The notes beneath the pieces were generated by a model. It was not told where the DNA came from. It made no database searches and worked only from the letters and a program-made list of their open reading frames with translations. A program made the translations under genes and the position numbers. From Gammaproteobacteria bacterium (GTDB taxonomy: Bacteria; Pseudomonadota; Gammaproteobacteria; Pseudomonadales; Pseudohongiellaceae): a stretch of 64,000 bases of DNA. Shown piece after piece: positions 60,829 through 63,802 of this stretch. The first letter of the stretch is position 1. Every line of letters starts with the position of its first letter. The stretch is taken from the NCBI GenBank assembly GCA_012960305.1, contig DUBM01000020.1:62001-126000 (forward strand). The letters are read 5' to 3'.

Positions 60829-60844
60829 ATACAACATATAGACA
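60829..60844. promoter_or_regulatory. NrdR-box-like site, first of a pair
   Basis: On the minus strand this reads TGTCTATATGTTGTAT, keeping the CTATAT-x-TTGT core of the NrdR box. Its centre is exactly 31 bases from the next site, the spacing at which NrdR binds two boxes on the same helix face. Confidence 0.55.
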
Positions 60845-60859
60845 AGCTGCGAATCATTA

Positions 60860-60875
60860 ACACAAGATAATGCGA
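60860..60875. promoter_or_regulatory. NrdR-box-like site, second of a pair
   Basis: ACACAAGATAATGCGA matches the consensus at 12 of 16 positions. By itself it is weak; the 15-base gap to the site at 60829-60844 is what makes it credible. Confidence 0.45.
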
Positions 60876-61063
60876 TTATAGGGTTATTGCAAGTTCTTTT
60901 TCGGTGAGTTATCTGTGGGTAAATTGTGAATAGGCTGTTGGTGTTATTGAATATTTACTCTAGTGGTAACCGCTTCAAAGGAACTGCTCAAAATTTGTTC
61001 AAACTGTTGTTTTGTTTAGCAGAAATTTGGCCTAAATCTCGTTCTTATGAACGAGAAAAGGAA

Positions 61064-61079
61064 ACACTATATGTTGTGG
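61064..61079. promoter_or_regulatory. NrdR-box-like site
   Basis: ACACTATATGTTGTGG matches the NrdR consensus at 14 of 16 positions. It has no recognisable partner box, and lies close to the end of argF, nearly 900 bases upstream of nrdA. Confidence 0.45.
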
Positions 61080-61112
61080 TCGTCCAAAACGGGGAAAATT
61101 CAAATAAAGAGC

Positions 61113-61156: not shown

Positions 61157-62053
61157 TTAGGAGTTAAGCATGAATTCTAACAGTGCTTTTTGAGAGTGCA
61201 TGCGGTTTTCCGCTTCGTCCCAAACGACGCAGTCTTCACGATCCAGGAGTTTAGTGCTGACTTCCTCGCCACGGTGAGCGGGTAAGCAGTGCATAAATAA
61301 TGCATCACTATGGGCCTTGGACATCAACTCTTCGGTGACTTGGTAATCGGCAAAGGCTAGCTTTCTTCTGGCCTGCTCTTCTTCTTGTCCCATCGAGGAC
61401 CATACATCAGTCACTACTAGATCAGACCCTGCTACTGCCTCACTGGGGGAGCGCAGTAGGCTGACTCGATTAGGGCTAAGTTCTAACAAGTCTTTGCGAG
61501 GTTCGTAGCCAAAGGGGCTGGCAATTTTCAATTCGAAATCGAATTGAATGGCAGCATTAATGTAGGACTGGCACATATTATTGCCATCGCCGATCCAGCT
61601 TACCGTCTTACCGGAGATGCCGCCCTTATGCTCAACATAGGTTTGCATGTCGGCCAACAGCTGACAGGGGTGAAAATCATCACTGAGCGCATTGATTACT
61701 GGAACATTAGAGTGGAGGGCAAACTCCTCAAGCATAGCCTGGTCAAAAGTTCGAATCGCCAAACAATCAACCATGCGCGAAAGTACGCGAGCACTATCGG
61801 CAACAGGTTCTCCGCGTCCTAGCTGAGAATCCTGGTTTGACAGAAACAGAGAGTTGCCACCAAGTTGTGTCATTGCTACTTCAAATGCCACTCTGGTTCT
61901 GGTGGATGACTTATCAAAAATAAGGCCAAGAGTTTTCTGCGATAAGGTTTGGCTAGGCAGGCCTAAGGATTTTAGTTCAATCGCCCGCGCAATAATTGTC
62001 TGAAGTTCATCTTTGCTCAAATCAAGCAAGTTGAGAAAATGTCTGGAACTCAT
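61157..62053 (-). CDS. argF: Ornithine carbamoyltransferase
   Basis: A 298-residue cytoplasmic enzyme that forms citrulline from ornithine and carbamoyl phosphate in arginine synthesis. The carbamoyl-phosphate loop is SSTRTR (49-54), the second motif is HPCQ (128-131), and the ornithine-binding motif is [11 protein letters not shown] near residue 256. Length matches the anabolic type. AAGAG lies seven bases before the ATG. Upstream on the same strand are a 14-codon leader ORF and an intrinsic terminator, an arrangement suggesting transcription attenuation. It shares the substrate carbamoyl phosphate with pyrB at 42 kb. Confidence 0.95.
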
Positions 62054-62120
62054 GGGAATACTCTTTTTGCTATAGTGACCTGGTTATGGGCTGCTAAAAT
62101 TGTTCGATACAACTTACTGG

Positions 62121-62150
62121 AAATAAAAAGGGCAGCTTTCGCTGCCCGTT
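62121..62150 (-). terminator. Intrinsic terminator/attenuator upstream of argF
   Basis: On the minus strand GGGCAGC-GAAA-GCTGCCC (62147-62130) forms a 7-base stem with a stable GAAA loop, followed by TTTTTATTT. It is a strong rho-independent terminator pointing at argF, 68 bases before its start and 11 bases after the stop of the leader ORF. There is no minus-strand gene upstream other than that ORF, so it would act on the argF transcript itself. Confidence 0.75.
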
Positions 62151-62161
62151 AAAAAAGCATT

Positions 62162-62206
62162 CTAGCCAAGTCTGCCCTGCGGGGCAATTGTCTTTGTTAT
62201 TATCAT
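62162..62206 (-). CDS. Putative argF leader peptide (14 residues)
   Basis: The frame encodes MIITKTIAPQGRLG. Its ATG (62206) has a strong AGGAG exactly eight bases upstream, and its TAG lies 11 bases before the terminator. In the RNA the codons for Ile-Ala-Pro-Gln-Gly lie in a small hairpin (TTGCCC/GGGCAG) whose two arms are each complementary to one arm of the terminator, so alternative pairings are possible. Ribosome position on this ORF could therefore decide whether argF is transcribed. It has only one Arg codon (AGA, third from the end), so classical amino-acid attenuation is not obvious; stalling of the nascent peptide is another option. I do not recognise this peptide from known leaders. 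Confidence 0.6.
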   Translation of the reverse strand: MIITKTIAPQGRLG

Positions 62207-62239
62207 CAGCTAGTCTCCTAAACACTTAATCCATCGACT

Positions 62240-63802
62240 GTGTGGTTTGCATTGAATTCAGTAGAACTAAAATTATTCTCCAGTCGTGTTGCAGCTATCT
62301 GCGATGAAATGGGTCAAGTTTTACGCAGAACTGCCTTCTCTCCGAATATAAAAGATCGGCTAGATTTTTCCTGTGCAATATTTGGAGCTCAAGGAGAGCT
62401 CTACGCTCAAGCAGCCCACATACCAGTCCATTTGGGAAGTATGGCATTTGCTATGAGAGGGATTATTGGTAATAGACCTTGGCAGGCAGGGGACGTACTA
62501 ATGGTAAACGACCCCTTTCTAGGGGGCACTCATCTTCCTGACGTTACGGTAATCTCGCCGGTTTTTTTATCAAATTCTGAGTCCTTGCTTGGGTTTGTAG
62601 CTAATCGAGCACACCATGCCAACATTGGTTGCGATACTCCAGGCTCCATGCCCGTTTCCACCTGTCTCGAGGAGGAAGGGCTGATCATTTCGCCAACATT
62701 CTTATTTAAGAAAGGGAAGTTACAGCAAAATTCAATCGCGCTCCCTGGTCTAAAGAACGGAGTCTTAATTGGTGACTTCGCAGCACAAGTTGGAGCGAAT
62801 CAAGTAGGTGTGCGACGCCTCCAAAATTTGATCGAACAAACTGGATCCTCTGCCTATCTAATTGGTATGCAGGAGCTTAATGATTATGCCGATCGACTTA
62901 CTGCAAATTTGATTACATCGATTGAGCCAGGAGAGTTCAGCTTCAAAGATATGCTTGATGACGATGGTTGTGGCAACAAGGAAATCGGTCTCGCGGTGAG
63001 CATGCGAATTACGCCTGCCTGTATTGAATTAGATTTTAGCAAAAGTGCAGATCAAGTTGAGGGGAATCTTAACTGTCCGGAACCTGTGGTAGCGGCGGCA
63101 GCCTACTTTTGTTTTAGATGCCTAATGCCCGCTGAGGCGCCTTCATGCGAGGGCTTATTTCGTCGCATTAAAATCATAACCCGAGTAGGCTCCTTGATCA
63201 ACGCTCGGCGGCCTGCAGCGGTTGCAGCCGGAAACGTTGAGACTTCAACAAGATTAGTCGATGTGGTTTTCGGGGCCCTTGCTCAAGCTATGCCAGAAAA
63301 AATTGCAGCAGCGAGTCAGGGTACTATGAACAATGTGGCCATGGGTGCTATCGATGAATCATCCGGTATTCGCTGGGATTATTACGAGACCCTGGCTGGA
63401 GGTATGGGTGGAGGGCCAAATTTTTCAGGCCTAGATGCAGTTCATACTCATATGACAAATACTCTCAATACGCCCATCGAAAGCTTGGAAATGCACTACC
63501 CGCTGCGAGTGCATCAGTACCGAATTCGCCCAAATAGTGGCGGTGGAGGAGCGCAAAAAGGCGGCAATGGAATTGTTCGGGAATATGAATTTCTCGAGTC
63601 CACCCAGCTAAGTTTACTTTCGGAGCGACGATTAAATAAGCCATGGGGATTGCGCGGAGGATCCGCTGGGGCTTGTGGTAATAATTTTCTCAATGATAAG
63701 TTGCTGCCCAGTAAATGCAATTTGCATGTAGTGGCTGGAGATAGGCTGATCATTGAAACACCTGGTGGTGGTGGTTGGGGTGTTGCTGGTCCGGAGACGT
63801 AG
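62240..63802 (+). CDS. Hydantoinase B/oxoprolinase family subunit
   Basis: A 520-residue protein of the HyuB family, the large partner of an ATP-dependent hydantoinase, oxoprolinase or acetone-carboxylase-type enzyme. Landmarks are LFSSRVAAICDEMGQVLRRTAFS, GDVLMVNDPFLGGTHLPD, FVANRAHHANIG and the C-terminal GGGGAQKGGNGIVREYEF, then TPGGGGWG. The family usually starts close to N-x-V-E-L, so TTG 62252 is an alternative to GTG 62240; neither has a clear ribosome site. The partner HyuA gene is not next to it, which is unusual. It is divergent from argF. Confidence 0.85.
   Translation: MWFALNSVELKLFSSRVAAICDEMGQVLRRTAFSPNIKDRLDFSCAIFGAQGELYAQAAHIPVHLGSMAFAMRGIIGNRPWQAGDVLMVNDPFLGGTHLPDVTVISPVFLSNSESLLGFVANRAHHANIGCDTPGSMPVSTCLEEEGLIISPTFLFKKGKLQQNSIALPGLKNGVLIGDFAAQVGANQVGVRRLQNLIEQTGSSAYLIGMQELNDYADRLTANLITSIEPGEFSFKDMLDDDGCGNKEIGLAVSMRITPACIELDFSKSADQVEGNLNCPEPVVAAAAYFCFRCLMPAEAPSCEGLFRRIKIITRVGSLINARRPAAVAAGNVETSTRLVDVVFGALAQAMPEKIAAASQGTMNNVAMGAIDESSGIRWDYYETLAGGMGGGPNFSGLDAVHTHMTNTLNTPIESLEMHYPLRVHQYRIRPNSGGGGAQKGGNGIVREYEFLESTQLSLLSERRLNKPWGLRGGSAGACGNNFLNDKLLPSKCNLHVVAGDRLIIETPGGGGWGVAGPET

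Follow-up and report, generated by a model that had tools for sequence, protein, structure and literature searches.

A conserved promoter and hairpin ahead of argF in the Pseudohongiellaceae: a probable promoter-proximal attenuator without a leader peptide

A 64,000-nucleotide stretch of DNA from a gammaproteobacterium of the family Pseudohongiellaceae (GenBank assembly GCA_012960305.1, contig DUBM01000020.1, forward-strand positions 62,001 to 126,000), here called the window and numbered from its first letter, carries argF, the gene for ornithine carbamoyltransferase, on its minus strand. It is probable (we would put the figure at about 0.68) that argF is transcribed from the promoter TTGCCC-N17-TAGAAT into an intrinsic terminator lying directly beyond it, which would constitute an attenuator that lacks a leader peptide and is arranged like that of ampC. 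The composite is a real conserved cis element and, within the searches made, an undescribed one: no match at E<=1 was found among 4227 Rfam models for positions 61500-62700, and the matches listed in the open-licence PubMed Central (PMC) literature included none that described attenuation of argF in this clade. Its interest is that of a conserved, gene-specific terminator situated nearly at position +1 of a biosynthetic messenger RNA (mRNA), in organisms where the usual arginine repressor was undetected, and it is thus relevant both to how early intrinsic termination acts and to the control of arginine synthesis without ArgR. A first-pass annotation of the window had proposed an undescribed-looking argF attenuator governed by a 14-codon leader peptide; the attenuator is very probably present, in the form of an intrinsic terminator, and the false lead of the leader peptide has been removed.

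The argF leader

The features of the region, all on the minus strand, are as follows.

61157 to 62053, minus strand: argF, ornithine carbamoyltransferase, 298 amino acids, with its ATG at 62053
62054 to 62120, minus strand: remainder of the argF 5' leader, of highly variable length among relatives
62121 to 62129, minus strand: U-tract TTTTTATTT, completing the predicted intrinsic terminator, with TTTTT at 62129-62125
62130 to 62147, minus strand: terminator hairpin GGGCAGC-GAAA-GCTGCCC, conserved in the family and predicted to start at about +3 to +6
62149 to 62152, minus strand: predicted argF transcription start, placed from the position of the -10 box
62159 to 62164, minus strand: -10 box TAGAAT of the argF promoter (spacer 17), the first three bases of which are the stop codon of the 14-codon frame
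62182 to 62187, minus strand: -35 box TTGCCC of the argF promoter, located by a consensus scan and by the TTG at promoter spacing in relatives
62162 to 62206, minus strand: 14-codon frame MIITKTIAPQGRLG, judged to be a chance open reading frame overlying the promoter

The argF gene gave a single match at E<=1e-60 in the 3.1-Mb genome. The GAAA-loop terminator-like hairpin with its T-run that was noticed in the first-pass annotation is present (62147-62125), and the first 33 nucleotides of the predicted argF RNA fold at -15.7 kcal/mol, with a z score of -4.65 against shuffles. A scan of positions 61700-62600 found two promoter-like and two terminator-like sites, compared with 1.4 and 1.0 in shuffled sequence, so that the counts in this single sequence are not above chance, and it revealed no second minus-strand promoter-like site. 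The promoter and hairpin are therefore taken as real because they are conserved, and not on the strength of the scan counts. A strict scan of 464 kb of the genome (400 kb of one contig together with the window) gave 22 terminator-like sites, of which that of argF alone had a promoter of this type 5-20 nucleotides upstream. A generic terminator of the genome was considered and rejected, as the stem motif occurred in one of 33 looser terminator-like sites in the same 464 kb, and terminators 3' of argF were found in 4 of the 47 regions having at least 150 nucleotides of downstream sequence.

Conservation of the composite among relatives

A search of 59 genomes of the family detected argF at E<=1e-60 in 56, and all 56 loci were fetched. 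To these were added the best 80 of 582 argF loci from named genomes and 42 further loci supplied by a genus search, a total of 178 argF upstream regions, some of them fetched twice, which yielded 53 distinct regions with the stem motif. Three more loci that stand outside the 53 bear such a hairpin too: L005, left out as a copy of L004 in that stretch, and L012 and L021, which the strict pattern did not catch. A terminator-like hairpin was found in the 300 nucleotides upstream of argF in 29 of 136 loci; 26 of these had a stem of the same type, at least one locus being duplicated (L003 is L059), while L097, L103 and L119 had different hairpins.

The anatomy of the composite and its conservation before argF can be read directly from these sequences: TTG-N3-N16-18-TANNNT is followed after 10-18 bases (mode 13) by a GGGTAGC-N4-GCTRCCC hairpin, T5 and then argF. 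The promoter score reached at least 8 out of 12 in 51 of the 53 hairpin-bearing regions, in 9.4% of shuffles and in none of 52 control windows placed 80-140 nucleotides further upstream. TTG at promoter spacing was present in all 53 regions, 51 of which fitted the strict pattern while the other two contain N letters. The best-scoring spacer was 17 in 41 regions, 18 in nine and 16 in three, and L061 and L152 can also be fitted with TAATAT at a spacer of 17. The distance from -10 box to stem lay between 10 and 18 nucleotides and was 12-14 in 42 of the 53, and that from the end of the stem to the argF start codon ranged from 20 to 196 nucleotides, being at most 45 in 18 regions and at most 30 in seven. 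In these seven there is no room for another promoter, which implies that argF would be transcribed through the stem, unless its transcript is almost leaderless. The family loci not included in the 53 numbered 39: 13 had the promoter without the hairpin and one (L039) the promoter with a decayed hairpin, three did have the hairpin, one gave a chance promoter match and 21 were without such a promoter.

Twenty-three of the sequences served to train a covariance model, so that matches to these training loci are not independent, and in 137 genomes of the family it gave 63 matches at E<=1e-4, distributed over 61 genomes. Of the 60 matches at E<=5.5e-5, 59 lay before argF (54 placed by coordinates or tblastn and five by fetching and confirming the locus) and one, L160, lay at a contig end, adjoining the usual divergent hydantoinase gene; the remaining three (E 6.2e-5 to 6.7e-5) were not before argF. 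Matches occurred in five of the eight genera of the family, but the sole match in the fifth genus (G021) did not lie before argF, leaving the argF element in four of eight by this search. Within the genus, the model matched at least 62 of 81 genomes at E<=0.5, and three of 194 genomes of the order were matched, namely the window's own, one family member and one in which the match was not before argF. In a tree of argF with 89 rows, 50 of them labelled as having the hairpin, the hairpin is found on both sides of the midpoint, and 11 changes of presence were counted, at least nine of them forced by well-supported branches; the count is inflated, since L005, L012 and L021 were labelled as lacking a hairpin which they possess.

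The promoter and the terminator together bound a tiny transcription unit, as would be expected if its product were a functional RNA of about 30 nucleotides acting in trans, with read-through into argF secondary. This is very improbable, as the roughly 4-12 nucleotides before the hairpin are variable and leave little with which to base-pair, and 59 of the 60 best matches tie the element to argF, the remaining one being at the contig end. Ten matches away from argF were examined (L182-L188, L210, L216 and L217; E 6e-5 and weaker), and no second regulated gene was found among them; those with a clear context resemble ordinary terminators. In five of them (L184, L185, L186, L188 and L217) a stem nearly of the argF type, GGTAGC-like and followed by a T-run, occupies what appears to be the gap between atpC and glmU (gene names assigned by eye), but these are only a handful of sites and were chosen by the covariance model itself.

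RNA signal or DNA signal

Variation within the stem is of a kind that maintains RNA pairing. At pair 4 the 53 stems have U-G in 26, U-A in 20, C-G in seven and C-A in none, at pair 1 G-C in 37, A-U in 15 and G-U in one, and at pair 5 A-U in 40 and G-U in 13. The wobble pairs disrupt a DNA palindrome yet preserve an RNA stem, and hence point to pairing of the RNA type. In an alignment of 23 rows, which were picked for pairing and are mutually related, none of the 161 cells is unpaired. Three measures were higher than in any of 500 shuffles: the covariation score, the fraction of cells that pair and the count of cells with changes on both sides.

The same figures bear on whether the inverted repeat serves in the DNA as an operator, bound by a repressor just after the start site, the RNA hairpin being a by-product. 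Such an operator would account for the strong conservation of the stem (GGGTAGC/GCTRCCC) and for its position just after the start, and would supply a regulator where ArgR was not found. However, the U-G at pair 4 (26 of 53) and G-U at pair 5 (13 of 53) break the symmetry of the DNA while keeping the RNA paired, C-A cells are absent from all 53, and the T-tract, which follows the stem on one strand only, would go unexplained; an operator is accordingly judged quite improbable.

Another view of the hairpin is that it is a 5'-terminal stem-loop protecting argF mRNA from decay or shaping its translation, the T-run being incidental. The hairpin does lie close to the 5' end as predicted, and 41 of the 53 hairpins have a GNRA loop. 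A protective stem has no need of T5 immediately behind it, whereas T occupies tract positions 2-5 in 92-100% of the 53, a figure owed in part to selection since a T-rich tail was one of the criteria. Several unpaired nucleotides precede the stem, and unpaired nucleotides ahead of a 5' stem weaken such protection. With a near-identical stem found in intergenic gaps, like an ordinary terminator, such a role is unlikely.

The 14-codon frame

The layout of signals described in the first-pass annotation is present, with AGGAG at 62219-62215, eight bases, an ATG at 62206-62204, the 14 codons of the frame and a TAG at 62164-62162, although the distance from stop to hairpin is 14 bases and not the 11 claimed. 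From this layout it had been proposed that argF is controlled by ribosomes translating, or stalling on, MIITKTIAPQGRLG. The proposal has in its favour a good Shine-Dalgarno sequence, an ATG, a stop and a pair of complementary segments. The frame, however, overlies the -35 and -10 boxes and lies upstream of the predicted start; its TAG makes up the first three bases of the -10 box, and RNA from this promoter would therefore begin after the frame. A frame of 8-40 codons with a Shine-Dalgarno sequence and an ATG, ending before the hairpin, was found in one of the 53 regions, the window's own. When the rules were relaxed to frames of 5-60 codons with any start codon, seven of the 53 had one, and only the closely related L061 and L152 encoded related peptides. 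This lack of conservation in relatives is the outcome that had been named beforehand as telling against the proposal. When the intergenic region was dinucleotide-shuffled 3000 times, a frame of 8-40 codons with a Shine-Dalgarno sequence and ATG arose in 9.7% of the shuffles (29% with any start codon), and the frame alone is for that reason weak evidence. According to a passage of PMC4824070, attenuators with amino-acid leader peptides have their terminators at a distance of more than 20 bp, and the interval from stop to stem in the window is 14 nucleotides. Taken together, these data make it most likely that the 14-codon frame is a chance open reading frame lying over the promoter and not a leader peptide, and control by a ribosome upon it is scarcely credible.

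The complementary segments TTGCCC and GGGCAG had been read as alternative pairing partners of the terminator arms, but TTGCCC is the -35 box itself. As antiterminator arms they were rejected, for TTGCC and the -10 box are kept in the 13 loci that have no hairpin, and TTGCC also in the one where the hairpin has decayed, which marks it as part of a promoter and not as a pairing arm. No antiterminator arm was found in the predicted leader RNA, in which about 4-12 nucleotides precede the stem across the 53 regions.

Proposed mechanism and comparison with known systems

It is proposed that RNA polymerase starts argF RNA from TTGCCC-N17-TAGAAT, the predicted start in the window lying 2-5 nucleotides before the stem. 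A GC-rich hairpin of 7 base pairs would then form, beginning at about +3 to +6 and followed by U5, the terminator extending to about +28; with such a start the polymerase would reach the U-tract when it is at about +21 to +28, and the RNA would be some 25-30 nucleotides long at the point of termination. Some of the initiating polymerases would be released there and the rest would read through into argF, and every one of them would have to pass the terminator, with no leader peptide, antiterminator or ribosome site before the stem. The promoter is presumably used, and transcription presumably terminates, with an efficiency that would set or tune argF expression. On this evidence argF is probably throttled at a terminator placed almost at the start of its message.

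Among known arrangements the closest is the attenuator of Escherichia coli ampC, reportedly described by Jaurin et al. in 1981. In attenuation of the ampC kind, termination in vivo is partial and shifts with growth rate. In ampC a ribosome-binding site stands ahead of the hairpin; in the predicted argF RNA there is no room for one. As in ampC, an intrinsic terminator appears a few tens of nucleotides past the promoter in a short leader that has no amino-acid-sensing leader peptide, and at the level of sequence it does stand between the promoter and the argF start codon, the likeness being one of arrangement, between different genes. The attenuator region of ampC is placed at +17 to +37 in a passage of PMC9241650, whereas the argF stem would start closer to the beginning of the RNA, at about +3 to +6. 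The ampC attenuator also serves as the terminator of frd, as stated in part of PMC6045580. For argF a role as terminator of the upstream gene was rejected, because that neighbour is divergent in 46 of 52 regions and on the same strand in six (called from the longest open frame, a rough proxy), and the terminator, unlike that of ampC, seems dedicated to argF.

The trp, his and speF systems are leader-peptide attenuators. They share with argF a terminator preceding a biosynthetic gene, but the argF element is without a conserved leader frame and without an antiterminator arm in its predicted RNA. Bacillus subtilis pyrG is also a biosynthetic gene with a peptide-free attenuator in its leader, one that, by the account in a portion of PMC4448216, involves CTP-sensitive reiterative transcription. 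Slippage of the pyrG type was rejected, as no conserved GGG run could be seen by eye at the predicted argF start, and the poly(G) switch is hence unlikely to be the same.

The core of the gammaproteobacterial ArgR regulon includes argF, according to the part of PMC5343134 concerned. Neither of the ArgR domains, PF01316 and PF02863, was detected in the window's genome (97% complete) or in 15 congeners (65-99%), a search that did not extend to the AraC-type ArgR found in Pseudomonas; both domains were present in one of 24 genomes searched, a member of another family, and controls were detected in 9 and 8 of 14. The clade thus seems to be without ArgR, in contrast to gammaproteobacteria in which argF is under its control, and with the repressor undetected argF may be controlled in large part by the terminator.

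A number of points weigh against an attenuator at this position. The hairpins were selected on pairing and on a T-rich tail, so that the counts of pairing and of T are partly circular. In the alignment of 23 rows only one pair is changed on both sides, a value equalled or exceeded in 229 of 500 shuffles, and the further pair types number seven, as high in 190 of 500. An intact hairpin is missing from 36 of the 39 loci of the family that do not belong to the 53, indicating that it is dispensable, and from all 19 tree rows of one clade, in which argF appears, by eye, to follow argD. The sequence of the stem is conserved beyond the needs of a mere terminator, leaving room for a protein-binding role, and a terminator so near the start might work poorly. 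Both the argF start site and termination are, moreover, predictions.

Conservation of the stem sequence, and not only of its pairing, is also the reason for proposing that the hairpin may be recognised by a factor. In that case the nascent argF RNA of about 30 nucleotides would itself be the control point, its hairpin recognised by a factor or by a state of the polymerase, and attenuation would be conditional although neither a leader peptide nor a riboswitch nor an antiterminator took part; this bolder form of the proposal is tentative and, on balance, doubtful.

Neighbouring features and other observations

In 11 of 15 fetched Pseudomonas argF leaders (the last 200 nucleotides of L105, L111, L113, L115, L116, L120, L128, L129, L131, L134 and L135) another hairpin, of the GCGGC-loop-GCCGC type and with no T-run, lies between promoter and start codon, and by eye the CTGCGGTC downstream of it could pair with the hairpin. 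The divergent hydantoinase gene of the window probably starts, as judged by eye, at the TTG at 62252 (MNSVELKLF; compare MNPIELKLF in L160) and not at the listed GTG at 62240. The interval that separates argF from the ribonucleotide reductase gene downstream of it contains, at 60840-61090, two palindromes resembling ACAACATATAGTG / CTATATGTTGTA, which were seen by eye but not found by a simple pattern scan, and which are similar to the NrdR-box consensus.
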